Source: Burkholderiaceae bacterium
GTDB taxonomy: Bacteria > Pseudomonadota > Gammaproteobacteria > Burkholderiales > Burkholderiaceae_D
DNA: 64,000 nucleotides
Assembly: GCA_004298905.1 (NCBI GenBank)
Contig: SCTK01000016.1
Coordinates: 62,001-126,000 of the forward strand
Direction: 5' to 3'
Part shown: positions 39,922-57,880 of the stretch, one piece after another
Numbering within the stretch: the stretch's first letter is position 1
Layout of the letters: every line of letters begins with the position of its first letter
The notes under the pieces: generated by a model
What the model was told of the DNA's origin: nothing
What the model saw: the letters and a program-made list of their open reading frames with translations, nothing else
Database searches by the model: none
Made by a program: the position numbers and the translations under genes

Positions 39922-41091
39922 ATGATGGAATTTGAATACTGGTGGCTGATCACCATCCCGCTGATTTTTGGTATGGGCTGGCTGGCGGCGCGGCTGGATT
40001 TGAGGCAGTTGCTGCATGAATCACGCGAACTGCCGCGTTCCTACTTCAAGGGCCTGAATTTCCTCGTCAACGAACAGTCCGATCAAGCGATCGACGCCTT
40101 CATCGAAGTGGTGCGGCTCGATCCGGAAACCATTGAACTGCATTTCGCACTCGGCAATCTGTTCCGCAAGCGCGGCGAAACTGATCGCGCGATTCGCATG
40201 CATCTGAACCTCTATCAGCGCAGCGATCTGGAACCCGCACAGCGTGAACATGCCCTGTATGAGCTGGGCCAGGATTACATGAAAGCCGGCCTGCTCGATC
40301 GCGCCGAGCAATCCTTTAGCGCATTGAACGACAGCCGCCACGCTCGCGACGCGCAACTGGCCTTGCTGGAAATCTATCAGCGCGAACACGACTGGAACAA
40401 GGCCATTGCCGCCGCACAACAATTGCAACACACGCATGGGATCAATCAGGCCGGCTTGCTGGCGCACTTCTATTGCGAACAGGCGCAGGAAGCGCTGCAA
40501 CGTCAGCAATGGGAAAACGCCGAGGCGTTGCTGACACAGGCCTTGAGTGTCTGCCCCCACCACGTGCGGGCCTCGATGCTGCAAGGCGAGTTGAAACAGC
40601 AACAGGGCCAGACCCGCGCCGCCGCCGAGATCTGGTCCACGCTGGCGCACCAGCATCCCGAGTTTCTCCCGCTCATTGCGCGCCGCTACTACGCCGCGAT
40701 GCAGGCGCAAGGACGCGCCGCCGAAGCGGAAACACGCTTGCGTGCCTATCTGGAAAAACGGCCGTCGCACGATATTCTGTTGACCCTGTTCGATACCGCT
40801 CAGGAGGCGCACGGCGCAGCCGCCGCGCTGACCCTGCTGCAACAGGAATTGCGCCGCGCACCCACCCTGCAAGCATTCAACCGCTTGCTCGGCATGCAAC
40901 TGGAAAATGCGACGGGCGACGAACGCGCCATGCTGGAATCGATCAAGCATCTGATTCACCGCCATGCGCGACAGATGGAGCGCTACACCTGCCAGGCCTG
41001 CGGCTTCAAGGCGCGCGAATTTTACTGGCAGTGCCCGGGCTGCGCACACTGGGATAGTTATGCGCCGCAGCGGCAGGAAGAAACGGAATAA
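39922..41091 (+). CDS. lapB: Lipopolysaccharide assembly protein LapB
   Basis: The 389-residue protein has one N-terminal membrane helix (EYWWLITIPLIFGMGWLAARLD), a conserved ELPRSYFKGLNFLVNEQ segment, about nine TPR units, and a C-terminal rubredoxin-like zinc or iron site: CQAC ... CPGC. In E. coli LapB (YciM) directs LpxC to FtsH to balance LPS and phospholipid. I chose the ATG at 39922; the TTG at 39916 is possible. It is coupled to lapA, 12 bases apart. Confidence 0.95.
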   Translation: MMEFEYWWLITIPLIFGMGWLAARLDLRQLLHESRELPRSYFKGLNFLVNEQSDQAIDAFIEVVRLDPETIELHFALGNLFRKRGETDRAIRMHLNLYQRSDLEPAQREHALYELGQDYMKAGLLDRAEQSFSALNDSRHARDAQLALLEIYQREHDWNKAIAAAQQLQHTHGINQAGLLAHFYCEQAQEALQRQQWENAEALLTQALSVCPHHVRASMLQGELKQQQGQTRAAAEIWSTLAHQHPEFLPLIARRYYAAMQAQGRAAEAETRLRAYLEKRPSHDILLTLFDTAQEAHGAAAALTLLQQELRRAPTLQAFNRLLGMQLENATGDERAMLESIKHLIHRHARQMERYTCQACGFKAREFYWQCPGCAHWDSYAPQRQEETE

Positions 41092-41121
41092 CGCAGCAGA
41101 ATTTTGTATAAGGGAAGTGGA

Positions 41122-42480
41122 ATGAACATCACAATTATCGGTAGTGGTTATGTGGGATTGGTCACGGGAGCCTGTCTGGCCGATGTCGGCAACAACGTGT
41201 TGTGTCTGGATGTGGATCAACGCAAGATCGACATTCTCAACAGCGGCGGCATTCCGATTTACGAACCCGGCCTGAAAGAAGTTGTTACGCGCAACCGCGC
41301 CGAGGGACGCCTGCGCTTCACCACCGATGTCGCAGCCAGCGTCGCGCACGGACAAATTCAATTCATCGCCGTCGGCACACCGCCGGACGAAGACGGCTCG
41401 GCCGATTTGCAATATGTGCTCGCCGCCGCACGCAATATCGCCACCCACATGCAATCGTCCAAGATCGTGATCGACAAATCGACGGTGCCGGTCGGCACCG
41501 CGGACAAGGTGCACGCAGAAATCGCCAAGACCCTGAAGCAACGTGATGCCAACATTCCATTCAGCGTGCTGTCCAACCCGGAATTTCTGAAGGAAGGCGC
41601 GGCAGTCGAGGATTTCATGCGTCCCGATCGCATCGTCATCGGCCTGCCCGCCAGCCCGCAACAGGAAGAAGTCAAGGAAGCCATGCGCGCCCTGTACGCG
41701 CCATTTCAGCGCAATCACGAACGCATGTTGTTCATGGATGTGCGCTCGGCCGAGTTGACCAAATACGCCGCCAACGCGATGCTGGCCACGCGCATTTCTT
41801 TCATGAACGAACTGGCCAATCTGGCCGAGATTCTCGGCGCCGATATTGAAATGGTGCGTCAGGGCATCGGCTCCGATCCGCGCATCGGCTACCACTTCCT
41901 CTATCCCGGCGTCGGTTATGGCGGCTCGTGTTTCCCCAAGGATGTGCAAGCGTTGATTCGCACCGCCGCCGAGAACAACTATCCGCTGCATGTGATGCAG
42001 GCCGTGGAAGTCGCCAACAATCTGCAAAAACTGCGCATCGCCCACAAAGTAACCAAGCGTTTTGGCGATGACCTGACCGGCAAGCATTTCGCCATCTGGG
42101 GCCTGGCTTTCAAACCGAATACCGATGACATGCGCGAAGCGTCAAGCCGCTACATCATTCGCGACCTGCTGCAAAAAGGCGCCACGCTGGCGCTGCACGA
42201 CCCGGTGGCGATGGAAGAAGCGCAGCGCTGCCTCGCCCTGGATCTGGAAGACATGCCGGGTTGGGAAGAACGCGTGCAGTTCTGCGACGACGCGCACACG
42301 GCCCTGCACGCTGCCGACGCCCTGCTCATCCTCACCGAATGGAAAGCCTTCCGCAGCCCCGATATGGATGCCCTCAAGACCGCGTTGCGTCAGCCGATCA
42401 TTTTCGACGGCCGCAACCTGTATGATCCCGCGTGGATGCGCAAGCTGGGCTTTGAGTACGAAGGCATTGGGCGTAAGTGA
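41122..42480 (+). CDS. ugd: UDP-glucose 6-dehydrogenase
   Basis: The 452-residue enzyme oxidises UDP-glucose to UDP-glucuronate with NAD. Motifs are the Rossmann start [41 protein letters not shown] and the catalytic Cys in [16 protein letters not shown]. The product feeds polysaccharide or modified lipid A synthesis. A GGGAAG ribosome-binding site precedes the ATG. A terminator-like hairpin follows. Confidence 0.96.
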
Positions 42481-42514
42481 AAAGTGAAGCGTGACTTGGT
42501 GCTACGCACCTCAG

Positions 42515-42545
42515 GTGAAACGTGGGGTACTGCGTTTCATTTTTC
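42515..42545 (+). terminator. Probable terminator after ugd
   Basis: A 7-bp stem TGAAACG/CGTTTCA (42516-42522 with 42533-42539) with a 10-base loop is followed by five T. The 42481-42598 gap also repeats GTGAAA/TTTCAC words, giving alternative pairings. Confidence 0.5.
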
Positions 42546-42598
42546 ACCTTTCACATTTCACCCAAGCACTCTCTCGGTATTAAATTGGTAGAACGACA

Positions 42599-43543
42599 AT
42601 GCAGCAATACACACCCGAACAACTCAAACAAGCCCGCGTACTCGTCATCGGCGATCTGATGCTGGATCGCTACTGGTTCGGCGATGCGCATCGCATCTCG
42701 CCGGAAGCGCCGGTGCCGGTGGTGCGCATCGAGCGCACTGAAGATCGGCTCGGCGGCGCGGCCAACGTGGCGCGCAATGCGCAGACGCTGGGCGCGGCGA
42801 CGGCCATCATGGGCGTGGTCGGCCAGGATGAGGCGGGCGATCGCGTGGAATCGCTGCTGCAAGAAGAAAACATCAAAACCCATGTGCAGCGCGATGCCAG
42901 CCTGCCCACCACCATCAAGCTGCGCGTCATCGGCCGTCAGCAGCAATTGATTCGCGTCGATTTTGAAAGCACACCCAGCCACGACGTGCTGCTGGGCAAA
43001 CTCGAATTGTTCAAATCCATCCTGCCGGACTTTGATGTCATCGTCCTGTCCGATTACGGCAAGGGCGGGTTGACGCACATCCGCGAAATGATTGCCGCCG
43101 CACGCGCGGCAGGCAAGAAAGTTCTGGTCGATCCCAAGGGCCGCGACTACGCGCGCTACACCGGCGCCAGCCTGCTCACGCCCAACCGCGCCGAGCTGCG
43201 CGACGTGATCGGCGCCTGGCAAGACGAAGCGGAGCTGGAACAGAAAGCGCAAGCGCTGCGCAAGCAACTGGATCTCGAAGGCTTGCTGCTGACGCGTTCG
43301 GAAGAAGGCATGAGCCTGTTTCAGGAGGCGCCGACCTTGCATGTATCGGCGCAGGCACGCGAAGTCTATGATGTCTCCGGTGCGGGCGACACCGTGATCG
43401 CCACGCTGGCGGTGATGCTCGGCATTCACGCGCCCTTGCACGATGCGGTGCAGATGGCCAACCGTGCCGGCGGCATCGTGGTCGGCAAACTCGGCACCGC
43501 CGTGGTCACGCCCGCCGAACTTTTTCAGGAAGCGCAGTCATGA
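42599..43543 (+). CDS. rfaE1: D-glycero-beta-D-manno-heptose-7-phosphate kinase (RfaE1)
   Basis: The 314-residue kinase phosphorylates heptose-7-phosphate at O1 in ADP-heptose synthesis for LPS core. It has the PfkB signatures [38 protein letters not shown] and [16 protein letters not shown], with the catalytic Asp in the GAGDT motif. The adenylyltransferase half (RfaE2) that is fused in E. coli HldE is absent, so it must be a separate gene elsewhere. It overlaps rfaD by ATGA. Confidence 0.95.
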
Positions 43544-44523
43544 GCATCGTCGTCACCGGCGCGGCCGGTTTCATCGGTAGCAATCTGGTCAAGGCCTTGA
43601 ACGAGCGCGGCGAGACCGACATCATCGCCGTCGATAACCTCGCGCAGGCCGACAAGTTCCGCAACCTCGTCGATTGCGAACTGGTCGATTATCTCGATCA
43701 GGATGAATTTCTGGAACGTGTGCAAAACGGCAGCCTCGGACAAGTCCGCGCGATTCTGCATCAGGGCGCGTGCTCGGACACGATGGAAACCGACGGCCGC
43801 TACATGATGGAAAACAATTTCCGTTATTCACAGCATCTGCTCAGTTATTGTCTGCGCCACCAGGTGCCATATCTGTACGCTTCCTCAGCGGCTACCTATG
43901 GCGGCAGCGACACCTTTGTCGAACAACGTCAATACGAAAAACCGCTCAACGTCTACGGCTATTCGAAATTCCTGTTCGATCAAGTCGTGCGCAAGGTGCT
44001 GCCCACGGCACATACACCGATCACCGGCTTCCGCTATTTCAACGTTTATGGCCCGCGCGAAAATCACAAGGGCCGCATGGCTTCGGTCGCGTTTCACAAC
44101 TTCAATCAGTTCCGCGTCGAAGGCAAGGTGAAATTGTTCGAAGGCTGGGACGGCTACCAGGCTGGTTGCCAGCAGCGCGATTTCGTTTCGGTCGAAGATG
44201 TCGTCAAGGTCAATCTGCATTTCCTCGATCATCCGCACTCGGGCATTTTCAACCTCGGCACCGGCCGCGCGCAAACTTTCAACGATGTCGCCATGACGGT
44301 CGTCAACACCCTGCGCCAGCAACAGGGCCAACCCGCGCTGCCCCTGGAAGCCCTGGTGCAGCAAGGCCTGCTGGAATACATCCCCTTCCCCGACGCGCTC
44401 AAGGGCAAATACCAAAGCTTCACGCAAGCCAATATTGAACGTCTACGCAGCGCGGGCTACAGCGCCCCCTTCCTCACCGTGGAAGAAGGTGTGCAACGTT
44501 ACGTGCAGTGGCTACAAAAATAA
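43540..44523 (+). CDS. rfaD: ADP-L-glycero-D-manno-heptose-6-epimerase
   Basis: The 327-residue epimerase has the NADP Rossmann motif [16 protein letters not shown] at its start, the [10 protein letters not shown] strand and the catalytic Tyr/Lys of YGYSKFLFD. It converts ADP-D,D-heptose to ADP-L,D-heptose for the LPS inner core. A segment [20 protein letters not shown] is typical. It is translationally coupled to rfaE1 through ATGA. Confidence 0.97.
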
Positions 44524-44591
44524 GCGTCAACCGAATCCCCGAGTTTTGCGTTGTAGCGTAGGTTGTTCCCACCACCATAAGAGGAGGAAGT

Positions 44592-44999
44592 ATGTTGAAC
44601 AAACTATTACTCGGACTCGCCGGAGTGTTGTTCGCTGCATTTGCCTGGGCCGTGGACGTCAACACGGCCAGCCAGGCCGAACTGGAATCGATCAAAGGCA
44701 TTGGCCCGAAAACCGCCGCAGCCATCATCGCCGAACGCAAAAAAGGCGGCTCTTTCAAAAACACGCAAGATCTGGCGGATCGCGTCAAAGGCGTGGGCAA
44801 TACCAATGTGGAAAAATTCAAGGCTGCCGGTTTGACAGTCGCTGGTGAAAAATCCAGCGCCGCCCCGGCAGAAAAAGTGACCACCAAGAAAGAGGCTAAA
44901 CCTGCGGACAAAGCGCCAGTAGCTGCGAAGGATGAGAAAAAAACCAGCGAGAAGGACAGTAAAAAGAAAACCAAAAAGGACGCTGACAAGAGCAAATAA
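44592..44999 (+). CDS. ComEA-type helix-hairpin-helix DNA-binding protein
   Basis: The 135-residue product has a signal peptide (MLNKLLLGLAGVLFAAFAWA) and one HhH unit pair (VNTASQAELESIKGIGPKTAAAIIAERKKGGSFKNTQDL...VKGVGNTNVEKFKAAG). The last 45 residues are a Lys/Ala/Glu-rich tail. ComEA proteins hold double-stranded DNA in the periplasm during natural uptake; without other com genes here, competence is only a possibility. It has a GGAGGAAG ribosome-binding site and is followed by a strong terminator. Confidence 0.88.
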   Translation: MLNKLLLGLAGVLFAAFAWAVDVNTASQAELESIKGIGPKTAAAIIAERKKGGSFKNTQDLADRVKGVGNTNVEKFKAAGLTVAGEKSSAAPAEKVTTKKEAKPADKAPVAAKDEKKTSEKDSKKKTKKDADKSK

Positions 45000-45010
45000 A
45001 AATACTCTGT

Positions 45011-45052
45011 CCGCACCCCAGGCCCCGCAAATGCGGGGCCTGTTTGTTTGTG
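45011..45052 (+). terminator. Strong intrinsic terminator after the comEA-type gene
   Basis: CAGGCCCCGC-AAAT-GCGGGGCCTG (45019-45042) is a perfect 10-bp stem with a 4-base loop, followed by TTTGTTTG. Confidence 0.88.
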
Positions 45053-45092
45053 CGGTATGATTCCAGCGTGCATTTCAAACGACCGACCCATC

Positions 45093-45995
<903 letters not shown>

Positions 45996-46036
45996 GGCAG
46001 GGCCAACATGTATATTCACAAACCCTAGGAGACATC

Positions 46037-47176
46037 GTGATCGAGCAAAAAATTAATGAATTCTTTGGTGATACTGAGTCTACTGGCTTTGGAACAGGTT
46101 GGTGGAGTGGGATATCGTCGGCATTTTTTGGAGCTCTTTCATTCGGAGCAGTTTTGTGTCTGCATTTTCCTCAACTGCTAAGCTCTCCTGAACTGCGTTC
46201 CCATTATCCAATGGGCACCATTCGCGTTCTAATCCAATGCCTCATATTGGCGGCAATTTTATTCGGAATTATCTCCTCGATTCTGCGCAAGAAAAAGATT
46301 TTGGGGTTGACTGGAATGTCGCTTGCCCTGGCGGCAGCGGCTTTGGGCGGATCAAGTGTACCGATTAACGAAACTTTGCACGACGGGCCCGCAATCGGCC
46401 TAGACTGGTTTTTGCTTGATTTGTTTTTGATGTCACTCATTTATGTGCCCATCGAGAGACTCTGGCCTCAGTATCCAAAACAAGGAACCTTCAGGGAACA
46501 ATGGACTTTGGATATCGTTTATTTTCTGTCCACCCATCTTCCCATACAAATTTTATCGCTTCTCGTCTTATTGCCCGCAACCCAGGCTACTAAATATTTG
46601 GCCGTTCCAAGCATTCAGCAGTTCATCGGTCAGATGCCTTGGTTGTTACAGTTTTTTTTAGCCGTTGTGGTTGCAGACTTTGCTGAATGGTCCATTCATT
46701 GGGCTCTGCATAAAGTACCTTTTCTATGGCGGTTTCATTCTATCCACCACTCCTCCAAGGCGCTCGATTGGATTGCGGGCTCACGTTCCCATTTTTTCGA
46801 TGACACCCTGGTACGTGGGTTTATCCTTGTTCCCATGATGCTGGGATTCTCTCAAAATATCATCGTGGCGTATTTGATTTTTGTTACCCTTCACGCTACC
46901 TGGACCCATTGCAATTTTCGTCCCAATGCCAAATGGCTCGAAAAGTTTTTGGTTATGCCCAGATACCATCATTGGCATCACACCTCTCAAAAAGAGGCCA
47001 TCGATAAGAACTTTGCCATTCATTTTCCCTGGATAGATAAAATTTTCGGAACTTATTATTTTCCTGATGAATGGCCGAAAGTTTACGGCCTGGATGGCGA
47101 AGAAATTCCGAATGGCTTTATCAGGCAAACCTACGAGCCATTTATAAAAAAGAACAAACATGCTCTAAAAATTTAA
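46037..47176 (+). CDS. Fatty-acid-hydroxylase-superfamily membrane protein
   Basis: The start is a GTG with an AGGAG site 6 bases before, giving 379 residues. The protein has about seven hydrophobic segments and the diiron His boxes of the fatty acid hydroxylase/sterol desaturase superfamily: HWALH (221-225), HSIHH (234-238), a His pair in HATWTH (286-291) and HHWHH (311-315). Superfamily members hydroxylate or desaturate lipids; one, alkylglycerol monooxygenase, cleaves ether lipids. The gene is AT-rich compared with cysM, a sign of transfer. It overlaps the next gene tail to tail by 12 bases. With the reductase and AGPS-like gene beyond, a role in modifying ether-linked or other membrane lipids is inferred. 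Confidence 0.8.
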   Translation: MIEQKINEFFGDTESTGFGTGWWSGISSAFFGALSFGAVLCLHFPQLLSSPELRSHYPMGTIRVLIQCLILAAILFGIISSILRKKKILGLTGMSLALAAAALGGSSVPINETLHDGPAIGLDWFLLDLFLMSLIYVPIERLWPQYPKQGTFREQWTLDIVYFLSTHLPIQILSLLVLLPATQATKYLAVPSIQQFIGQMPWLLQFFLAVVVADFAEWSIHWALHKVPFLWRFHSIHHSSKALDWIAGSRSHFFDDTLVRGFILVPMMLGFSQNIIVAYLIFVTLHATWTHCNFRPNAKWLEKFLVMPRYHHWHHTSQKEAIDKNFAIHFPWIDKIFGTYYFPDEWPKVYGLDGEEIPNGFIRQTYEPFIKKNKHALKI

Positions 47177-48022
47177 TGCCTCCAAAGGAACATCCTTCGG
47201 GATGTCTGCACCCTTTGCCGTTGCTTTGACCAAGCCAAGATATTTCATGAATTTGACAGTGATAAATCCAAAGTCATATTCAGCCACATCGTGGCTTAGC
47301 CGCAAAAGGCCTGGATGGTGGTGATGGTTATTCTGTAAGCAAGCGCTAAAGGTCGCCGTAACTGGTAGCCACTCACCAATGTTCATGGCATTGTCGTGCT
47401 CGTCGTTATAGCGTCGATACCCATATTTTCTGGTGTGGGTCCAATAATTCTGAATCATATTTACCCACAAGGCAAAAATTCGCATCCCAACCCACATCAC
47501 TAACGCAAACTTCAAATCTCCCACCAACCACCATAAGAGAGAGAAACTGAAAATTTGTGAGAATGTCGCGAAAAAATTGTTCGCAACGAGCCTGAATGGC
47601 CACGACTTAAAAATCTTGTCGTTAGCCAGATTCTCATTGCATGAATAAGGAATTACGCAGAGATACAATGTTCGCCAGAAACCATCGCTTGCAAGTTTAT
47701 TGGGGTCTCCAGGATGGTCCGAATATTTATGATGCAATCGATGGCGATTCACCCAGGCGACCGGATCAACATAGAGCCCGAAGAAGTTATTCACAAGAAT
47801 GACGAGTTTTATGAACCATTCTTTGTAGTCGAGTGAACGATGTGCAATTCCCAAATGAAGAACATCGGCCAAATACAGTCCAGCTAGAAACCAGAAAAAG
47901 AAAAAGTAAACTCCGCCTATTAGTAGACCAATCCAGGGGCCCAAATGAGCTGGTGCGAAAATCATGCACGCCAACAGATCGAAAATAATAATCGAATAGC
48001 CAATGACATTGTATATTTTCAT
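47165..48022 (-). CDS. Membrane fatty acid desaturase
   Basis: I chose the ATG at 48022, which has a GAGGAAA site at proper distance; an in-frame ATG at 48040 is less likely. The 285-residue protein has four or more hydrophobic segments and three His boxes: HLGIAH (56-61), HRLHH (94-98, in HRLHHKYSDHPGDPNK) and HHHH (233-236, preceded by QNN). The arrangement and the HxxHH...SDxxGDP text match the delta-9 acyl-lipid/acyl-CoA desaturase group. It would insert a cis double bond in an acyl or alkyl chain at the inner membrane. Base composition is AT-rich like its convergent neighbour. Upstream 48023-48202 is a divergent promoter region with no gene seen. Confidence 0.85.
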   Translation of the reverse strand: MKIYNVIGYSIIIFDLLACMIFAPAHLGPWIGLLIGGVYFFFFWFLAGLYLADVLHLGIAHRSLDYKEWFIKLVILVNNFFGLYVDPVAWVNRHRLHHKYSDHPGDPNKLASDGFWRTLYLCVIPYSCNENLANDKIFKSWPFRLVANNFFATFSQIFSFSLLWWLVGDLKFALVMWVGMRIFALWVNMIQNYWTHTRKYGYRRYNDEHDNAMNIGEWLPVTATFSACLQNNHHHHPGLLRLSHDVAEYDFGFITVKFMKYLGLVKATAKGADIPKDVPLEALNF

Positions 48023-48202
48023 GATGAATTTCCTCGCCATTTCTTAAACCGAGATTAGAACTGCTTTCACAGCATATGTAAATGCGGAATTAAGCAACAG
48101 CCGCATAAAGCCTTGCGAGAAGTAATGGCTTAATGCTACTTTCTCTCCATCGATTTCGACGAAGCGGATTATTGACGTGCTCAACCAAAGTTCTTTTCAT
48201 CT

Positions 48203-49438
48203 ATGAAGCTTGAGACATTTCCCAAGACCGTCTTTCTGACCGGCGCCACAGGCGTCCTGGGCGGCAGCATTTTGAAAGACCTTCTTCAATCGACTTCATC
48301 TCGTATCTATTGCCTGGCACGTGGCAAAGATCTGGTGCATTGTCAGGAACGTGTTCGTTCGTTTCTCCGTGTTTATGACGCTAATGGGGCACTGGAGTCG
48401 GCGTTCCTCTCTCGCGTGATTGTGCTGTGGGGAGACGTGACTCAGGATCGGCTCGGGCTATCGAAGGCGACTTATGCCGAACTTCAAAGCCACACGGATA
48501 TCACGATCCACGCGGCAGCCAACACGAGCCTGCTTCTCAAATACAAGCGACTCGAACCAATCAACGTTCAGGGCACCGGTCGCGTGATTGAGTTCTGTCT
48601 CGGCACTGTTGAGAAAAGCCTTTCTTATGTCTCCACTTACACGGTGATGGGAGACAAGACTTTCGATAACAGCGTCCGCTTCCAGGAGACAGACTATGAC
48701 CTGGGGCAGGGATTCAAGTACATGAACTATCAGCGCTCGAAGTTCCGTGCCGAAGCCATGGTAAGGGCGGCTCAGGGGCGTGGTCTGAAGTGGCGCATCT
48801 TCCGTCCGGGACAGATTTATGGCGATTCGACCACCGGCGCATATCCGCATTCCGAGACCCAAGTCACGGGACTGTTCTACGATCTCTTCAAAACCGCGAT
48901 GGACACACGGGTAATGCCCGAATCTTACATACACTACGACGTCGTACCTGTGGATTACGTGAGCCGTGGAATCGTCGCTCTTTCTGCGGGTGTTGAGAAT
49001 TTCTTCGACGTCTATCACCTGACCAACCCTGACGCGAAAACGTTTTCTCAGGTCATGGGGCTTCTGCGGGAAATTGGCTACCATATTGATCTGCTTCCCG
49101 AAGAGATCTACAAACAGAGGCTTCGACGCGGTGAGATCACGAAGAACGGCGAACCCTACACGAGCACGATTCTGAAGGCTTTCAATCTCTGGTATTTTAT
49201 CTCTGAGATCAGCTTCTACGTCAGCGCGATGACGGACTGCGAGTACACGCGCTCGAAGCTTGAGACGCTGGGAGTGACCTGCGCGCCAATCAATCGCAAG
49301 CTCATAGAAACCTATGTGCATGCTGGAATCCGGGGAGGTTACTTTCCGAGTCCCTCGCATAGTGATAACCATAATGCGACGCGAGCACCAGTCGACTTCT
49401 CGGCTAATCTTTTCAGCGCAGAAGGATGCCCCACATGA
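48203..49438 (+). CDS. Fatty-acyl (thioester) reductase, extended SDR
   Basis: The 411-residue protein has a Rossmann NAD(P) motif VFLTGATGVLGGSIL (10-24), the GDVTQDRLGLS segment, NVQGTGRVIEFC and a catalytic Tyr/Lys pair in YQRSK (Tyr176, Lys180). This is the male-sterility/thioester-reductase group that reduces acyl-CoA or acyl-ACP to aldehyde or fatty alcohol. No carrier or adenylation domain is attached. The Shine-Dalgarno is weak. Its stop overlaps the AGPS-like start (ATGA), so the two are coupled, and a fatty alcohol is exactly the second substrate of AGPS. Confidence 0.82.
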   Translation: MKLETFPKTVFLTGATGVLGGSILKDLLQSTSSRIYCLARGKDLVHCQERVRSFLRVYDANGALESAFLSRVIVLWGDVTQDRLGLSKATYAELQSHTDITIHAAANTSLLLKYKRLEPINVQGTGRVIEFCLGTVEKSLSYVSTYTVMGDKTFDNSVRFQETDYDLGQGFKYMNYQRSKFRAEAMVRAAQGRGLKWRIFRPGQIYGDSTTGAYPHSETQVTGLFYDLFKTAMDTRVMPESYIHYDVVPVDYVSRGIVALSAGVENFFDVYHLTNPDAKTFSQVMGLLREIGYHIDLLPEEIYKQRLRRGEITKNGEPYTSTILKAFNLWYFISEISFYVSAMTDCEYTRSKLETLGVTCAPINRKLIETYVHAGIRGGYFPSPSHSDNHNATRAPVDFSANLFSAEGCPT

Positions 49439-51117
49439 TGAAGTGGTGGGGTTGGGGCGATCCGAAGTTGAATTTCCCGATGGCTGACAAGCCGAATCTG
49501 TGGCCTTGGGTGGCAAAGAAACTTGGCATTGTGAGTGCCGTGCCTACGGCCATGCCGGTTGATCTTTCATCGATTCAGATGACTCCGACGCAGGCGAGTA
49601 CGGAGTTGCTCGCCGAACTACGTCAGATCCTGAAGCCCGACCAGATCACGCTCGACCCGTTCGAGCGGCTTCTTCACAGTTATGGCAAGAGTTTCCCTGA
49701 TCTCTTCTGCGTTCGAAACGGCGTAGTGAGACGAGCACCCGACGCTGTTCTCCTTCCAGACTCGCACGAACAAGTAGAGGCGCTCGTCAAGCTCGCGCAT
49801 CAGCGCAACTTCTGTCTGATCCCTTTTGGCGGCGGAACGAACATCGTGGGCGGAATCAATCCCGAAGCCGACGAAGTGCGTCCGATGATGACGCTCAGTC
49901 TGCGCAACATGAACCGTCTGATTTCGATCGACCCAGAATCTCGTACCGCGACAATTCAGGCTGGCGCACTCGGCCCCAAGCTGGAGGCAGATCTGGCGGA
50001 ACAAGGTCATTCGCTCGGACATTACCCTGACTCTTTCGAATATTCGACCTTGGGAGGATGGTTAGCCACCCGCTCAGCCGGCATGCAGTCAGACGCCTAC
50101 GGCAAGATCGAGGACATGGTCGTTTCGATCAAGATGATCACTCCCTCGGGTACGATCATCACGAAAGCTGTTCCGTCGTCCTCCGCTGGCCCCGATCTCA
50201 ATCGCATCATGGTCGGTTCCGAGGGCATCTTGGGCGTGATCACCGAAGCGACGATGCGTGTTCACAAAACACCCGCCATCAAGGATTACCGGGGTTATCT
50301 ATTCAAGAGTTTCGAAGACGGCGTGCATGGGATCCAGGAGTGTCTGGACCGCGGTTTCGCCCCGAGCATGATTCGGCTCCAGGACAGCGGTGAGAGCGAG
50401 CTCGCTTTCAACATGAAAGCCCCCAAGCATGGGCTTGAGGGCTGGATTCAGAATCGGGTGAAAGGCTGGCTTAGATTCCGCGGCTATACCGAGCCATGCA
50501 TTCTGATTGTAGGCTTCGAGGGCGCGGGGAAATCGATCGCGGCCACCCGCCGCTCCGCACTCGCGATACTGAAGAGCCATGGCGGTTTCCCTCTCGGCAA
50601 GAGTGTCGGCAATACGTGGTCGAAGGACAAGTTCAACATCCCCTATCTCCGCGACTACATCATGGACTACGGCTGCATGGCCGATGTAGCTGAGACTTCG
50701 ATCCTATGGTCGAAGGTGCTGCCGCTTTATACCGGCACAGTCGAAGCCGTGAAGGCACGCTTCCGGCAGGAAGATGGCACGGGTTACATAGGCTGCCATA
50801 TCTCCCATACTTACAAGACTGGCGCTTGCCTTTACTTCACGTTCGCAGCGCGGCAACCGAAGGGTAAAGAGCTCGAGCATTACTACGAATACAAGCGTCT
50901 CGTCACCGATACGATCATGAGCCTGGGCGGTACTCTCAGCCACCATCATGCCGTTGGAATCGAGCATCGCCCTTGGATGAATCAGGAAGTATCACCTGCG
51001 GGACTGCAGGCTCTTCACGCACTCAAGACTTCACTAGATCCGAAACAGGTATTGAATCCAGGCAAGCTCTTGCCAGAACTCGACGCGACCAGGGTCAGCG
51101 AGCAAGCAGAAAATTAA
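49435..51117 (+). CDS. Alkylglycerone-phosphate-synthase-like FAD enzyme
   Basis: I chose the ATG at 49435, which overlaps the reductase stop and has an AGAAGG site before it (560 residues). Features shared with alkyl-DHAP synthase are WGWGDP near the N-terminus (5-10), FAD-binding FGGGTN (131-136), a PDSFEYSTLGGWLATRSAGM segment (198-217), the HHHAVG active-site motif (503-508) and a DPKQVLNPGKLL end. AGPS swaps the acyl group of acyl-DHAP for a fatty alcohol, making an ether bond. Other FAD-linked oxidases of the VAO family (glycolate or lactate oxidases) are less likely because they lack WGWGDP and HHHxVG. No DHAP acyltransferase is present in the window. Composition is moderate, unlike the AT-rich genes before it. 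Confidence 0.8.
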   Translation: MMKWWGWGDPKLNFPMADKPNLWPWVAKKLGIVSAVPTAMPVDLSSIQMTPTQASTELLAELRQILKPDQITLDPFERLLHSYGKSFPDLFCVRNGVVRRAPDAVLLPDSHEQVEALVKLAHQRNFCLIPFGGGTNIVGGINPEADEVRPMMTLSLRNMNRLISIDPESRTATIQAGALGPKLEADLAEQGHSLGHYPDSFEYSTLGGWLATRSAGMQSDAYGKIEDMVVSIKMITPSGTIITKAVPSSSAGPDLNRIMVGSEGILGVITEATMRVHKTPAIKDYRGYLFKSFEDGVHGIQECLDRGFAPSMIRLQDSGESELAFNMKAPKHGLEGWIQNRVKGWLRFRGYTEPCILIVGFEGAGKSIAATRRSALAILKSHGGFPLGKSVGNTWSKDKFNIPYLRDYIMDYGCMADVAETSILWSKVLPLYTGTVEAVKARFRQEDGTGYIGCHISHTYKTGACLYFTFAARQPKGKELEHYYEYKRLVTDTIMSLGGTLSHHHAVGIEHRPWMNQEVSPAGLQALHALKTSLDPKQVLNPGKLLPELDATRVSEQAEN

Positions 51118-51186
51118 ACCCAACTTTTCGCCGTTCGCACCTAGATGGCTTTGGACAAAATGTCCGTTGATTCCAGCTGAAAACCC

Positions 51187-51798
51187 ATGATTACAGTCAT
51201 TGCTATAGTTTCTTATCTTATCGGTTCAGTGTGCTTCGCGGTAATCATGAGCCGCGTATTCCGGCTACCCGATCCACGTGTCTATGGCTCAGGCAATCCC
51301 GGCGCAATCAACGTGCTCCGGTCTGGCAACAAAGTTGCGGCCATGCTAACGTTGCTGGGCGACGCACTCAAGAGTTGGCTGGCCGTGTGGCTGGCACAAC
51401 GATTTGCGCCTGCTGGCGACGCCCAACTGGCGATGGCCATTGCGGGCACCTTTTCTGTGATCGGTCACATGTATCCGCTGTTTCATCATTTTCAGGGTGG
51501 CAAGGGTGTGGCAACGGCACTGGGCGCGCTATTTGGCTTTAGTGTTTACCTCGGACTAGGCGCGATTTCGATGTGGATCATTATCGCGGTATTTTTTCGC
51601 ATGTCGTCGTTTGCGTCGATTGTATCGGCGCTGTTTGCGCCGTTTGTGACGTGGATGCTATTCGGCGTTACGCATCCGTTCTTTGCTAGCGTGGCGCTGT
51701 CGGCCGTACTACTGATTTATCGCCACCGCCAGAACATCAAAAATATTCTGGCGGGTACGGAAAGCAGGCTCGGACAAATAGTTAAGCCTTACGTTTGA
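51187..51798 (+). CDS. plsY: Glycerol-3-phosphate acyltransferase PlsY
   Basis: The 203-residue membrane enzyme transfers an acyl group from acyl phosphate to glycerol-3-phosphate. All signature loops are present: GSGNPGAINVLR, GHMYPLFHHFQGGKGVAT and YRHRQNIKNILAGTE. Five hydrophobic helices are visible. It follows the AGPS-like gene by 69 bases in the same direction, which may be chance at an island edge or a functional link, since both enzymes load glycerol backbones. Confidence 0.95.
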   Translation: MITVIAIVSYLIGSVCFAVIMSRVFRLPDPRVYGSGNPGAINVLRSGNKVAAMLTLLGDALKSWLAVWLAQRFAPAGDAQLAMAIAGTFSVIGHMYPLFHHFQGGKGVATALGALFGFSVYLGLGAISMWIIIAVFFRMSSFASIVSALFAPFVTWMLFGVTHPFFASVALSAVLLIYRHRQNIKNILAGTESRLGQIVKPYV

Positions 51799-52041
51799 GC
51801 CGTCGATTCCAGTTATCGGCAGATAATCGTACGTGATGATATGCGCACAAGTCTGACGACCCGTGTCAACGTACGCCCCTTGAGGAGCGTGGCGGTCAAG
51901 TGTGCCAACTTGTTCAATCCCTGTTTCAAGATGCGCCTAGCCGTTGTCGCAACTGCTGGATTTCGGGGGCAGGCCCCCTATTTTCTGTGCCGTCGAGCTT
52001 CGCAAATACACCTCGGAGAAAAATGGAATCTGACCCCGCGC
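51799..52041. other. Intergenic region with weak hairpin
   Basis: The 243 bases between plsY and the convergent PilZ gene hold no gene I can support. A short GGGGG-CAGG-CCCCC hairpin (51965-51978) followed by TATTTTCTG may be a weak terminator. A GGAAT...ATTCC pair near 52024-52049 surrounds a CTGACCCC word. Open frames across it overlap the opposite-strand PilZ gene and look spurious. Confidence 0.4.
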
Positions 52042-52407
52042 TCAAATTCCGGGGCTCAGTTGCTTGTTTACCCAGGTCTTGATCAGGGTTCGGTATTCGT
52101 CCTGGATATCGACAAAATTCACGCCGACCTTGTAATCGCCGTGGCTCAGGATGGTGTGCGTGACGCGGGCGCTGCATACGCATTGATGACGCTTGCCGGA
52201 ACTGTCCGGGGCGGGAATTTCAATGCCGAGTGTCAAGGTGGTATTGACGGGAAAATTCTGCTGGCATAGAAAAGCCAACCCGCCTTCTGAAATATCGATG
52301 ACCTTGGTGAGCAGGTAGTTGCCCGGCCCGAGGATCACTCCGCCACGCCAAACGACCGCGACCCGAATGGTTTTACGCGCATCACTGCCAGAACCGGTTG
52401 AACTCAT
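52042..52407 (-). CDS. PilZ domain protein
   Basis: The 121-residue protein is a single PilZ domain with both cyclic-di-GMP contact motifs: RKTIR (residues 11-15, RxxxR) and DISEGGLAF (D/NxSxxG). It should bind c-di-GMP and act on a partner in motility, adhesion or polysaccharide output. It lacks any other domain. It is convergent with plsY and lies 69 bases after mltB on the same strand. Confidence 0.88.
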   Translation of the reverse strand: MSSTGSGSDARKTIRVAVVWRGGVILGPGNYLLTKVIDISEGGLAFLCQQNFPVNTTLTLGIEIPAPDSSGKRHQCVCSARVTHTILSHGDYKVGVNFVDIQDEYRTLIKTWVNKQLSPGI

Positions 52408-52476
52408 TTTCTGTATTCATTGTGATAGACCGCCATCAGTGTATCCGACCCGGAACGAAATCCGGCGGCCCCTGCG

Positions 52477-53556
52477 TCAGTTTTTTTTCCTGTCTGAATC
52501 GTAAGCGGTGCGGATCGCCTGCGCCAGCTCGATCACGGCCATGGCGTAAAAGCTGCTGCGGTTGTAGCGGGTGATCGTATAAAAATTTTGCGTGCCGAGC
52601 ACATACTCGGACGCGGCCTCGCCATTGGGCAAATCGATCAAGGCCAGACGCAACTCCGAAGCCAGCGGAGCAGCGGGGCGCACGCCAAATGCGGCCAGCT
52701 GCTGCGGCGTGAACTGCGGCACGATGCCCGCGGCGAGCAAGGGTTGCAAGCGCGCCGGATCGAGCTGGGCCGCGTAATGCGTGGCCAGATCACGCACCCA
52801 GCCATGCGCTTGCAGAAAATGAGCGACGCTGCCGATTGCATCGGCCTGATTCTGGCGCAGATCGATTTTTCCATCGCCATCAAAATCCACGGCATAGAGG
52901 CGCCAGCTGGTGGGCATGAATTGCGGCATGCCAATGGCCCCCGCATAAGAGCCGCGAATCGCAAACACATCCAGCCCATAATCGCGCGCAAACAGCAGGT
53001 AGTCTTCCAATTGACCACGAAAAAACGGTGCGCGATCACCGGCATCCGCCGGATAATCGAACGACAAGGTGGTCAGCGCATCGATCACGCGATAGTTGCC
53101 GGGATTACGGCCGTAGCGGGTTTCGATGCCGACAATCGCCACAATGATTTCCGGCGGCACACCGTATTGCTCGGTCGCGTGTTGCAACGCACCGGCATTG
53201 TCGCGCCAGAAGACCAGCCCTTGTCGAATCCGCTGCGGCTCGACGAAGCGGGTGCGGTAATCTTGCCAACGCTGCGGCTGGGTCGATCCCGACGGCGTCA
53301 TCAGTCGGGCAATCGACGCGTTGTAGCGCGCACGCGCAAACATGTGTTCCAGCTCGGCCGCGACAAAACCATGCTGCCGCACCATCGTATCAATGAAGGC
53401 GCGCACTTCCGGGCGCTGCGGATAATTGCTCAGCACACCAACGGTTTCGTCGATGTGTGGTTTGGGGTGTTGATGTTTCTTACTGGGAACGGCTGTTGCC
53501 GGGATGGCCAGCAAGCAGGCCAGAACCATCAGAAGCGCGCGAGTGCGGCGATGCAT
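52477..53556 (-). CDS. mltB: Lytic murein transglycosylase B
   Basis: The 359-residue protein has a signal peptide (MHRRTRALLMVLACLLAIPATA) and the MltB fold with the catalytic Glu in AIVGIETRYGRNPGNYRVIDAL, then FAIRGSYAGAIGMPQFMPTSW and VDFDGDGKIDL. It cleaves glycan strands of peptidoglycan. There is no clear lipobox, so it may be a soluble periplasmic form. Its start overlaps the transglutaminase gene end by 28 bases, so the two are cotranscribed. Confidence 0.93.
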   Translation of the reverse strand: MHRRTRALLMVLACLLAIPATAVPSKKHQHPKPHIDETVGVLSNYPQRPEVRAFIDTMVRQHGFVAAELEHMFARARYNASIARLMTPSGSTQPQRWQDYRTRFVEPQRIRQGLVFWRDNAGALQHATEQYGVPPEIIVAIVGIETRYGRNPGNYRVIDALTTLSFDYPADAGDRAPFFRGQLEDYLLFARDYGLDVFAIRGSYAGAIGMPQFMPTSWRLYAVDFDGDGKIDLRQNQADAIGSVAHFLQAHGWVRDLATHYAAQLDPARLQPLLAAGIVPQFTPQQLAAFGVRPAAPLASELRLALIDLPNGEAASEYVLGTQNFYTITRYNRSSFYAMAVIELAQAIRTAYDSDRKKN

Positions 53557-55571
53557 GTCTTGAGTTGTCTTAATTTTCGTTGATATTCACTGCGCGCCAG
53601 CGCTTGATAACGCAAGCTGGCATACAACAACGCCCCCTGCTCGATCAAGCGCGCTTGCGCGGGCTGCACTTCCTGCGTGCGCAGCAATTGCCGCACGGCG
53701 CGCTGCGCAAAATCCTGCGGGCCTTCGTGCGGCAAGCGTTCTGCGCCACGCCGCGCTAGCCACGTGCAATAGCGCGAGTATAGACGAGCCAGTGGATCGG
53801 TCGTGCGCGTGCGCCACCACAACCACGCGGACACGCTGCCCAGCACGACGCCGGTCATGCCCAGCAGCAATGCGCCGAGTTGCCGCCAATCGGGATCGGA
53901 CAGGCCGAGCCGTTGCAGCAGATCGCGTTGCCGCTCGCCGTTGAACGATAGCACCCACTGGTTCCAGCTGTGATTCACCGCTTCCCAATTGAAACGCAAG
54001 CGCCGCAGCCAGTCGATATCGCTGCGCACAAGAAACGGCAAGGCGGCATTGTCGAGCACACTGCCCGCAACGCCACGTTCGATGCGATTGGGCGCCACCA
54101 GCGCGGTGGGATCGACGCGCACCCAGCCACGTTGCGCCAGCCACACCTCAGCCCAGGCATGGGCATCGGACTGGCGTACCGACAGACTGCCATCGACCGA
54201 GTTGATTTCGCCGCCCTGATAACCCGTCACCACCCGCGCCGGAATTTCCAGCGCGCGCATCAGCACCACAAAGCTGCTGGCATAGTGTTCGCAAAATCCG
54301 GTTTGCGTGTCGAACAGAAATTCATCGACGCTATGCAGCCCCAGGGCCGGTGGCGTCAGCGAATAGCGGAAGGGCTGGCTGGTGTAGAAGCGCAGTGCGC
54401 GTTGCAAGAGTTGCGCTGCATCGCTCTCTTCGGCGCGCCATTGCGTCGCCAGCTTCAGCGTACGTGGGTTCATGCCATAAGGAAGATCAATGAGCGCAGC
54501 GCGCTGCGCAGCGTCCAGTTCTTCACCGTAGGAGAAATTCAATTGTGATCGTGCGCGATAACGCACGCGCTCGCTCAAGGGCCGCTGCGCCGTCATTTGC
54601 AGGTCCATTCCCATACGGACTTCGTTGCCTGCTTGTGAAAGTACCGGCACCTGCACCGGCGCTTCGAGCGCAAAAATCCACGGTTTCTGACTGGCTTCCA
54701 GCGTCACGGTGTAATCGATGGCGGCGGCATCGGCGGGAATGCGCAGCGTCAGGCTTTTCTGCATCCTCGCTGCGACATCGCTCCGCCGCCAGGTGCGGCC
54801 ATCGAAAGTTTCCAGCACCGGCCCGCGCCAATACAATTTGGCGCTGGGCGGCACGGCTTGATCGAAAGCAACACTGAAAGCCAATTCACCCGACAGCGCC
54901 AGTTCGGAGACCGAACCCGGTGCCATCGTGTCGGACAAACCCGTTTTGGCGCCCGCCGCATCCTTGGGCAAGGCCCACAACGGCCCGGCAATACGCGGGA
55001 ACAGGACGAACAACACCAGCATCAAGGGCACAGCCTGCGCCAGCAGGCTCGCCGCCATTTTCAGTTTGGCGGCGAACGGCGGTTCGCTGTCCATGAATTG
55101 CACATTGATTTGCGCCAGCACAATCGCCAGCAGCGCGAACACCATCAACAGCGCCACCGGGATCGATTGCGAATACAGAAAATTCGTGAGCATGAGAAAG
55201 AAGCCGATGAACAGCACGACGAACACATCGCGCCGCGCGCGCATTTCCAGCAGCTTGAGGGCAAGCAGTACCACCAGCGCGGCAACGCCCGCATCGCGCC
55301 CGAACAGGGTACGAAACTGCGCGAGCAAGGCGAGCGTCAGCGTGAACGCCAGCAGCCACAGCAACCAGCGTCCGGGCAAAGGCTGACCCTGCACCGTGAG
55401 CCAGGCACGATAGCTCATCAGGAGCAACGTGGTGACCGTGACCCAGAATGGCAAATGCTGGGCATGCGCAATCCAGCACAAGAACAGCGCTGTCAGCAGA
55501 AACAGCGTGTCGCGTTGTTCACGCTCCCATTGCGCGCCGAGACGGCCGAAGAGAATACCGAGCGCACGCAT
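53529..55571 (-). CDS. TgpA-type transglutaminase-like membrane protein (DUF3488)
   Basis: The 680-residue protein has about six N-terminal helices, a periplasmic transglutaminase domain, and one more helix with a DUF4129-like tail. The catalytic triad is visible: Cys in TGFCEHYASSFV, His in SDAHAWAEVW and Asp in WVRVDPTALV. TgpA of Pseudomonas aeruginosa is a homologue and is essential there; its substrate is not settled. It is third in the moxR-DUF58-tgpA-mltB row and probably works at the cell wall with mltB. Confidence 0.9.
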   Translation of the reverse strand: MRALGILFGRLGAQWEREQRDTLFLLTALFLCWIAHAQHLPFWVTVTTLLLMSYRAWLTVQGQPLPGRWLLWLLAFTLTLALLAQFRTLFGRDAGVAALVVLLALKLLEMRARRDVFVVLFIGFFLMLTNFLYSQSIPVALLMVFALLAIVLAQINVQFMDSEPPFAAKLKMAASLLAQAVPLMLVLFVLFPRIAGPLWALPKDAAGAKTGLSDTMAPGSVSELALSGELAFSVAFDQAVPPSAKLYWRGPVLETFDGRTWRRSDVAARMQKSLTLRIPADAAAIDYTVTLEASQKPWIFALEAPVQVPVLSQAGNEVRMGMDLQMTAQRPLSERVRYRARSQLNFSYGEELDAAQRAALIDLPYGMNPRTLKLATQWRAEESDAAQLLQRALRFYTSQPFRYSLTPPALGLHSVDEFLFDTQTGFCEHYASSFVVLMRALEIPARVVTGYQGGEINSVDGSLSVRQSDAHAWAEVWLAQRGWVRVDPTALVAPNRIERGVAGSVLDNAALPFLVRSDIDWLRRLRFNWEAVNHSWNQWVLSFNGERQRDLLQRLGLSDPDWRQLGALLLGMTGVVLGSVSAWLWWRTRTTDPLARLYSRYCTWLARRGAERLPHEGPQDFAQRAVRQLLRTQEVQPAQARLIEQGALLYASLRYQALARSEYQRKLRQLKTCIAALARF

Positions 55572-55574
55572 TCC

Positions 55575-56564
55575 TTATCCCTCGAACAATGCCAGCGCCC
55601 GCAAGCACTGTGCGCGATGCGCATCGCCGTGCGCTGGCGCAATGTGTTGCGTCGGCAAACTCAAGCCATACAACACATGCTGCTGCTCGGCTTCCAGTAT
55701 CCAGCGTGTCAAGCGCGATAGCCGTGCTTCGCGTCCGAGTGCAGCGGGCAATTGCGTCCAATCGAGCCAGAGCAAGGCCGGGCCGCTGCTGTCGAAGGAT
55801 TTGCTCAGCAAGGTGTCGTCGGCCTGCCGCGCAATTGCCTTCCACGCCAACTGACGCAGCGCATCGCCCGGCACAAACGGACGCACGCCGGAAAAATCCT
55901 CGTGACCCGCGACCGTGATGCCGCCCTCCCCCGGCGCCGCCTGCGGCACTGGCAGCGGTGGCGCATCCTGCTCCGGCGCGGGATACACCAGACAACGCAA
56001 CGAGGGATACCAATAGGCCCAGGCACGCCACAGGCCCAGTGGGAAAATGGTGGCGAGGGTGGTGCGCGGTAAAGTCTGCCAGCCACGCCGCGTGGTAGCG
56101 CAACTCAATTCCAGCGCCACACGATTGCCGCCGGAAATATCGGCCACCACGGCTTCTACACTCTCATCGCCTTGCAACGTCACAGCGTAGCGGTCATAAC
56201 GCTGCGCATTTTCCAGATCGATTTGAAAACGCGCCCACTCGCCAGCAAACACGGGTTCCACCCGGCCGGGCACGATACGCAAATGTGCGAGATTGCGGAA
56301 GGTGTGCAGGATGCCAACGATGGCGACTGCGCCGAGCAAAAACGTCAGCGCGAAACCGAGACTGAGTTGGTAGTTGATACTGCCCAGCAGCAACACCAGC
56401 AGGGTCAGCGCAAACATCAGGCCGGTGCGCGTGGGCAGGATGAATACGCGCCGCTGCACCAGTTCCACCACACCCGCTTCCGCCACGCGCGGACGGAAAA
56501 TCATGCGCGCGATGGATTGTCCGAGAGCGCTGTGTTGCAGGCGATGCGTGAATGCATCCAACAT
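55575..56564 (-). CDS. DUF58 domain protein
   Basis: The 329-residue protein has two N-terminal membrane helices (about residues 40-80) and a C-terminal DUF58 region with EDFSGVRPFVPGDALRQLAWKAIARQ, related to von Willebrand A folds. Such proteins are partners of MoxR ATPases. It lies between moxR (7 bases away) and the transglutaminase gene (3 bases away), consistent with one operon. Confidence 0.88.
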   Translation of the reverse strand: MLDAFTHRLQHSALGQSIARMIFRPRVAEAGVVELVQRRVFILPTRTGLMFALTLLVLLLGSINYQLSLGFALTFLLGAVAIVGILHTFRNLAHLRIVPGRVEPVFAGEWARFQIDLENAQRYDRYAVTLQGDESVEAVVADISGGNRVALELSCATTRRGWQTLPRTTLATIFPLGLWRAWAYWYPSLRCLVYPAPEQDAPPLPVPQAAPGEGGITVAGHEDFSGVRPFVPGDALRQLAWKAIARQADDTLLSKSFDSSGPALLWLDWTQLPAALGREARLSRLTRWILEAEQQHVLYGLSLPTQHIAPAHGDAHRAQCLRALALFEG

Positions 56565-56571
56565 GATGTGA

Positions 56572-57498: not shown

Positions 57499-57608
57499 GG
57501 GAAAAGGTTAACGGCACTGAACAGTGGAGATTCAGCTTAACATTTTCACCACCGGCTCAGTACTGTGTCATACACTGCGCGAATTGTGGAGCGCGATGAA
57601 GGCCAGCC

Positions 57609-57821
57609 TTGAATACATTGAATACGTCGACACTCTTCTGGGGTTTGCTTTTCGGCTCGATCGGGCTGGGCTTTTTCATCTACGGCAAGAAACAGAAGGT
57701 GCTCGTTCCCTTCCTGTGCGGACTGGCGCTGATGGTGTTCCCGTATTTCATTTCAAACACGCTGCCACTGGTCACGATTGGCGTTGCGCTGATCGCGTTA
57801 CCCTATTTTTTCAGACGCTGA
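57609..57821 (+). CDS. Small two-to-three-helix membrane protein
   Basis: The 70-residue product (core TLFWGLLFGSIGLGFFIYGKKQK, then VPFLCGLALMVFPYF and VTIGVALIALPYFF) looks like a small inner-membrane protein found in many proteobacteria and often labelled an amino acid transport protein without evidence. The only start codons in frame are TTG (57609 or 57618); an AAGG lies about 6 bases before the first. An ATG at 57596 is in another frame. Confidence 0.65.
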   Translation: MNTLNTSTLFWGLLFGSIGLGFFIYGKKQKVLVPFLCGLALMVFPYFISNTLPLVTIGVALIALPYFFRR

Positions 57822-57880
57822 GCGCGCTCGAGACATTCCACTAGACCATTACGTTCTCGTGGGTCACCTGAATCAGCAGT

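Follow-up and report, generated by a model that had tools for sequence, protein, structure and literature searches.

We analysed a 64,000-nucleotide stretch of a Burkholderiaceae bacterium contig (SCTK01000016.1; hereafter the window), whose source genome comprises 2.48 Mb in 26 contigs, and found in it a five-gene lipid module (Table 1). The module probably makes 1-O-alkyl glycerophospholipids through an aerobic route that depends on alkyl-dihydroxyacetone-phosphate synthase (AGPS). Judged by homology, active site, and modelled fold, its flavoprotein is an AGPS homologue and not a relative of glycolate oxidase. The gene is coupled to that of a stand-alone thioester reductase and is followed by a second, diverged copy of plsY (plsY2).

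The flavoprotein of the module is an AGPS homologue

The closest solved structures to the flavoprotein were those of AGPS from Dictyostelium (2uuu, E = 4e-137) and guinea pig (4bby, 1.1e-90), with the next protein family far behind at 3.4e-33. Seven active-site positions, given in guinea-pig AGPS numbering as T309, R419, R515, Y578, and H615-617, have their equivalents kept in the window protein and in each of its 11 close relatives (12/12 rows). The R419H and Y578F mutants are named among the structure matches; T309, R515, and H615-617 we take to be important for AGPS. An AlphaFold model built from 25 sequences (pLDDT 83.6) matched mammalian AGPS with a Z score of 41.1 and a root-mean-square deviation of 2.2 over 517 residues, spanning model residues 2-545. 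The first 47 residues of the model aligned to AGPS entries only, non-AGPS entries having start positions of at least 48 in the 50 structure rows shown.

In a tree of 38 rows, from which L020 was dropped as a fragment, the window protein, its close relatives, and two eukaryotic AGPS formed a group of 14 rows with a support of 95/90; the placement of the eukaryotic AGPS is unsure, as the two rows are few and divergent and the branch leading to guinea-pig AGPS is long. Four GlcD-like rows made up a separate branch (100/100) and lacked the equivalents of R419, Y578, H615, and H616. A preliminary description of this DNA had called the protein AGPS-like on account of its WGWGDP, FGGGTN, and HHHAVG motifs, and had named clustering with 2-hydroxy-acid oxidases as the outcome that would speak against that identity. 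All three motifs are present (the HHH triplet at residues 503-505), the protein groups apart from the GlcD-like rows, and the AGPS reading stands. A glycolate/lactate (2-hydroxy-acid) oxidase was rejected on the structure matches, the active-site residues, the tree, and the fold.

A commoner AGPS-like clade carries glutamine at His616 in all rows examined

AGPS-like matches at 1e-50 were present in 102 of 294 Oxalobacteraceae genomes. Identity to the window AGPS exceeded 38% only in the window genome itself and in genome G062 (92%); the other matches across the family were 33-38% identical. Among 398 genomes sampled from the phylum, 19 had such a match, none above 37% identity except the window's own. 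A search of plasmids for close relatives gave 74 records, all below 60% identity, the best among the matches listed reaching 38.3%.

Gln occupies the position of His616 in all 11 rows examined from the main other clade (seven from Oxalobacteraceae, four from further families of the class), and this clade separates from the AGPS group at 100/100. Four of them, from loci L050-L053 (genomes G001, G032, G016, and G005), adjoin clusters of kinase, oxidase, and regulator genes. For L050 and L051, all three types were verified with Pfam (FGGY kinase, GlpD-like oxidase, and AraC regulator); for L053, the kinase was. These proteins belong to the same flavoprotein superfamily as the module AGPS but differ from it in Gln for His616, in their neighbours, and in their clade. 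We do not think that these Gln-616 proteins are AGPS. The clusters of kinase, oxidase, and regulator genes look catabolic. An AGPS-like gene on a Halobacteriaceae contig (haloarchaeon, L019) encodes HHH and is flanked by genes for an FGGY kinase and a DAO-family oxidase.

An MxaA-type thioester reductase

The reductase contains TGATGVLG and YQRSK motifs and scored 230.6 bits with TIGR01746 (cut-off 213.35). Its closest structure was MxaA (4u7w, 2e-40); a fatty acyl-CoA reductase structure appeared only at 6e-5. Eukaryotic-type FAR1 consists of NAD_binding_4 followed by the PF03015 Sterile domain, and PF03015 had no match in the module reductase at E 0.001. A FAR1-type enzyme was rejected on these two grounds. 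MxaA catalyses a four-electron reduction to the alcohol, and the module reductase is predicted to make a fatty alcohol. Matches to it at 1e-30 occurred in five of 195 family genomes, two of them the module carriers. The ATGA at 49435-49438 is the reductase stop overlapping the AGPS start. The preliminary description's coupling of thioester reductase and AGPS holds, the type of the enzyme being MxaA and not FAR1. Genome G001 encodes a thioester reductase of 37% identity (L172:8339-10546) directly after an SDR (short-chain dehydrogenase/reductase) gene, away from its AGPS-like gene.

The module most likely moved as a unit

We compared the window with L005, a 21.7-kb locus on contig JANXTY010000012.1 of an Oxalobacteraceae metagenome-assembled genome (G062), which belongs to the same family. 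The family name Oxalobacteraceae used here is that of L005, the 92% relative. A single blastn block (E 1e-5) of 5823 columns with 87.7% DNA identity was found, and nothing else in the 64-kb window aligned to L005 at this threshold. The block begins past cysM and ends 33 bases beyond the plsY2 stop. Module proteins of the window and G062 share 85-94% identity (AGPS 92%, hydroxylase copy 94-95%). The 13 other reciprocal-best pairs from the fetched loci, a set that leaves out two antisense frames inside the module (60% and 83%) and may include some paralogues, are 41-82% identical, and the housekeeping PlsY pair 64%. The G+C content of the five module genes is 0.43-0.56, compared with 0.57-0.63 in five flanking genes, and their dN/dS lies at 0.08-0.25, with plsY2 highest at 0.25. 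The block, including plsY2, most likely moved as a unit, and we propose that the module was acquired horizontally. Read by eye, neither end of the shared block showed obvious insertion repeats, and there was no congener of the window genome among the genomes compared.

Table 1. Genes of the module and extent of the block shared with L005 (window coordinates)
Feature	Position	Strand	Evidence
Fatty-acid-hydroxylase-superfamily membrane protein, 379 aa	46037..47176	+	PF04116 FA_hydroxylase 1.2e-27
Membrane fatty-acid desaturase, 291 aa, convergent with hydroxylase gene	47165..48040	-	PF00487 FA_desaturase 4.8e-9
Stand-alone thioester reductase	48203..49438	+	PF07993 NAD_binding_4 2.1e-53; TIGR01746
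AGPS homologue, 560 aa	49435..51117	+	FAD_binding_4 7.1e-37; FAD-oxidase_C 2.3e-39
PlsY2, second diverged acyl-phosphate glycerol-3-phosphate acyltransferase	51187..51798	+	G3P_acyltransf (PF02660) 1.9e-47
Mobile module, extent common to window and L005	46013..51831		single blastn block

Within the module, the hydroxylase and desaturase genes have a G+C content of 0.43-0.44, as against 0.53-0.56 for reductase, AGPS, and plsY2. A third family genome (G035, 93% complete) holds relatives of the pair (85% identity for the hydroxylase, 79% for the desaturase) in the same convergent layout on a 7-kb contig (L170, G035:C78). This contig contains neither reductase nor AGPS, and the best AGPS-like match in G035 was 1.7e-24. 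Since the pair occurs without AGPS in G035 and has a lower G+C content, we regard reductase, AGPS, and plsY2 as the core and the hydroxylase and desaturase as a separable pair. Pfam and the coordinates bore out the positions and types of these two genes, the reductase, and the AGPS-like gene as previously described, and the single shared block supports a horizontally moved island. The four had been presented as one set of lipid genes between the core genes cysM and plsY. cysM does lie outside the module; the plsY is a second copy that moves with it, and two of the four form the separable pair. Scans of 45800-52100 gave five promoter-like sites (shuffled mean 5.7) and 11 terminator-like sites (shuffled mean 6.8) and were not used as evidence.

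PlsY2 is a diverged second PlsY

PlsY2 scored 168.5 bits with TIGR00023 (cut-off 137.2) and matched Aquifex PlsY (5xj5) at 3.5e-28. In the alignment to 5xj5, inspected by eye, all six residues of the glycerol-phosphate pocket (S35, R45, K104, S142, H177, and N180; roles taken from PMC5700162) are kept, as is His92. In 40 genomes searched for plsY, the window genome had two copies, 38 others had one, and one genome (80% complete) had none; G062 also holds two, one of them inside the module. The copies from the two modules group in a clade of their own (100/100, branch 0.8). The equivalent of Thr41 is Ile in both, compared with Thr in 16 and Ala in one of the 17 other PlsY aligned. The sole PlsY found in the genome of the Elusimicrobia locus L007 has Ala at this position. 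In Aquifex PlsY, the carbonyl of the acyl-phosphate is bound by Thr41, and the T41A mutant retains 4.75% activity (PMC5700162). PlsY2 thus resembles the housekeeping PlsY in exceeding the cut-off of the family model and in its six pocket residues, but differs in being a second copy with its own clade, in the exchange of Thr41 for Ile, and in its linkage to AGPS.

The PlsY proteins of E. coli and B. subtilis accept both glycerol phosphate stereoforms with no major preference, according to PMC13400652, so the C2 position is not strictly read; dihydroxyacetone phosphate (DHAP) goes unmentioned in the main text of that paper. DHAP acylation by PlsY2 is plausible on these grounds. Ile41 could equally mean that PlsY2 has low activity.

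Partner genes of close AGPS relatives

The 11 loci of the close clade (L005-L015), window positions 40001-58000, and six loci of other AGPS-like clades (L050-L055) were searched in six frames with profiles for the reductase, the acyltransferase, and the SDR, and the finds were checked with Pfam. A PF07993 reductase lay near AGPS in seven of the 11 close-clade loci (L005, L006, L007, L009, L012, L013, and L014), compared with none of the six others. A PF01553 acyltransferase was likewise found in seven (L006, L007, L009, L012, L013, L014, and L015) and an SDR in eight (L006-L010, L012, L013, and L015). All three partners were present in five (L006, L007, L009, L012, and L013) and at least one in 10, the exception being L011, whose contig measures 5.6 kb. 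About 5 kb separate the reductase of L006 from AGPS. The six other-clade loci had no such acyltransferase either, and three gave weaker SDR matches (1e-17 to 1e-32).

Pfam found no PF01553 match among the five module genes. Because the window and L005 are without PF01553 where seven of 11 loci have one, PlsY2 would fill the acyltransferase slot. The preliminary description had noted a missing DHAP acyltransferase; there is indeed no PF01553 gene nearby, and PlsY2 inside the module is now a candidate for the step.

Several of the clusters have arrangements of their own. Alsobacter soli (L009:8714-14200) carries an NAD_binding_4 reductase gene just before AGPS, with an SDR and two PF01553 acyltransferases on the opposite strand, and is a second proteobacterial cluster of this kind. 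The Elusimicrobia locus (L007:6941-11702) encodes a 999-aa fusion of reductase, PF01553 acyltransferase, and SDR beside AGPS. In Opitutaceae, a polyketide synthase with a terminal thioester reductase precedes a PF01553 acyltransferase, an SDR, and AGPS (L013:1-10425), and L014 shows the end of a reductase, a PF01553 acyltransferase, and AGPS. The arrangement in L012-L014 suggests ether lipids with polyketide-derived alkyl chains.

The Silvanigrellales Fluviispira and Spirobacillus (G318 and G323; L006, L015, L153, and L154) have AGPS, SDR, and acyltransferase together and PF10520 (the CarF/PEDS1 family) elsewhere; the genome of Fluviispira multicolorata also holds a reductase. They were the two of six genomes searched with a PF10520 match (7.7e-59 and 2.6e-61), and no PF02660 PlsY was found in them. 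We predict from this gene content that they are plasmalogen makers; a literature search on Fluviispira with plasmalogen found no paper. The window genome and G062 have no PF10520 match, and plasmalogen (vinyl-ether) synthesis by the module is not supported.

Proposed pathway and alternative explanations

In the proposed route, the reductase would convert an acyl thioester to a fatty alcohol, and an acyltransferase, most likely PlsY2 with acyl-phosphate, would acylate DHAP. AGPS would then swap the acyl group for the fatty alcohol to give alkyl-DHAP, a step with strong support from homology and the active site. The route to the alkyl-acyl phospholipid would be completed by a keto-reductase, which was found neither in the module nor near it, and then by housekeeping acyltransferases, and the hydroxylase and desaturase may tailor the chains. 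No vinyl-ether step is predicted because no CarF/PEDS1 homologue was found. A bolder version, which we put forward tentatively and regard as rather doubtful, holds that PlsY2 is a new acyl-phosphate:DHAP acyltransferase from the PlsY family that replaces the PF01553 enzyme, and that the three-gene operon confers alkyl-ether lipids by horizontal transfer.

Several points weigh against this route. Apart from the window genome, a single carrier of the module was found (G062). Some of the loci searched had supplied sequences for the search profiles and match by construction; L008, L009, and L010 had supplied none. The fetched flanks of L008, L010, L011, and L015 contain no reductase, the L015 contig ending about 4 kb after AGPS. 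Six-frame profiles detected no PF01553 acyltransferase or SDR like those of the other loci in window positions 40001-58000 or in L005, and elsewhere in the window genome SDR matches are of a generic kind (21-29% identity), which leaves the alkyl-DHAP reductase unaccounted for. The two consecutive steps seen in the preliminary description are retained in the pairing of thioester reductase and AGPS, but this enzyme is missing in addition to the acyltransferase. A search by likeness to the Fluviispira SDR yielded no candidate, with only generic SDRs in the window genome and a 34% match in G062 that is closest to the YdfG model. PlsY2 is without the acyl-phosphate-binding threonine and may be weak. 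Seven PF01553 genes lie elsewhere in the window genome, and the PlsB-like one, a 473-aa acyltransferase (L099:1072-2493, G000:C18), is an alternative candidate for the acylation.

It is quite possible that AGPS acts as proposed on acyl-DHAP from another enzyme such as L099, with PlsY2 only boosting phosphatidic acid or being a decaying passenger. L099 matches two PlsB models at 1.6e-38 and 1.9e-38, though its scores of about 133 bits are far below the cut-offs of 610 and 618.5; the loss of Thr41, with the T41A effect in Aquifex, and the highest dN/dS of the module fit a weakened PlsY2. This dN/dS is nevertheless well below 1, PlsY2 and AGPS share one block in both carriers, and the five PF01553 frames of G062 (273, 641, 261, 720, and 282 aa, only the last annotated) include none of L099's length. 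That the product is an alkyl-ether secondary metabolite or signal instead of a membrane phospholipid appears unlikely. The reductase is of the type that terminates polyketide and peptide synthetases, and in L013 a polyketide synthase with such a reductase precedes the acyltransferase, SDR, and AGPS, but no synthase-sized frame lies near the module (the longest open reading frame in 43000-56000 has 680 aa), and a phospholipid acyltransferase belongs to it.

We consider it very improbable that the flavoprotein belongs, within the FAD_binding_4 superfamily, to the oxidases of hydroxy acids or polyols, with the reductase making an aldehyde or wax precursor and no ether lipid being formed. Pfam and NCBIfam did assign generic FAD domains only, with the GlcD model below its own cut-off, and related AGPS-like proteins of the family adjoin the FGGY kinase, GlpD-like oxidase, and AraC regulator. 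Those relatives have Gln for His616 and separate with full support; the GlcD-like rows, with their four missing residues, also separate with full support, and the N-terminal stretch of the window protein aligns to AGPS entries only. AGPS-dependent synthesis of alkyl phospholipids is the reading that we retain.

Hydroxylase and desaturase

The hydroxylase-superfamily gene starts with GTG, with AGGAG ahead of the start. Its product has the histidine motifs HWALH, HSIHH, and HHWHH and scored 93.2 bits with NF052566 (ornithine-lipid hydroxylase OlsE), below the cut-off of 475. With regard to an alkylglycerol monooxygenase (AGMO)-type active site, the first histidine motif has HK in 3/3 module-type rows and HE in 11/11 more distant rows. 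The structural model (pLDDT 60.7) was too poor for a structure search. The protein is a possible lipid tailoring enzyme; relatives at 31-39% identity occur in other family genomes. The desaturase boxes HLGIAH, HRLHH, and NNHHH are conserved in all three sequences.

Relation to known systems and significance

The MXAN_1676-1674 operon of Myxococcus xanthus, which encodes AGPS, a FAR1-GNPAT-like fusion, and an epimerase/dehydratase-family protein, likewise combines AGPS with reductase and acyltransferase; disruption of this AGPS had a minor effect only on ether lipids (PMC9131029). The module differs from it in its stand-alone thioester reductase, in a PlsY paralogue for the GNPAT-like domain, and in having no SDR near. 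With the FAR1-GNPAT-AGPS pathway of animals and Dictyostelium it shares AGPS homology, the active-site residues, and the need of AGPS for a fatty alcohol (PMC9131029), but it has no PF03015 in the reductase, no PF01553 in the module, and no PF10520 in the genome. Myxobacterial ElbD also ties a reductase domain to ether-lipid formation (PMC9131029). It is one multidomain protein with ACS (acyl-CoA synthetase), ACP (acyl carrier protein), and acyltransferase domains, none of which is fused in the module.

AGPS homologues are on record from many bacterial phyla of the Black Sea, Proteobacteria among them (PMC11868695), and the rarity put forward in the preliminary description was overstated. For elbD, the same source cautions that ether lipids do not necessarily follow from the presence of a homologue. 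Among the matches listed, judged by titles and the starts of abstracts, no paper dealt with AGPS and a PlsY paralogue or with AGPS in Oxalobacteraceae. The three-gene make-up with a PlsY paralogue, the apparent block transfer, and the separation by residues from the commoner AGPS-like clade appear to be new.

The residue test, His616 versus Gln, separates likely true AGPS from commoner homologues. The distinction is important for surveys, in which homologues are counted by similarity. Aerobic bacterial ether-lipid synthesis has been only partly worked out, mainly in myxobacteria, and this betaproteobacterial operon, which is compact and transferable and has a clear AGPS, offers a simple system for testing it. 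The module names PlsY2 as a concrete candidate for the acyl-DHAP step; if that assignment is true, a PlsY-family enzyme would have been recruited for the role that a PF01553 enzyme has beside AGPS in seven of the 11 related loci.

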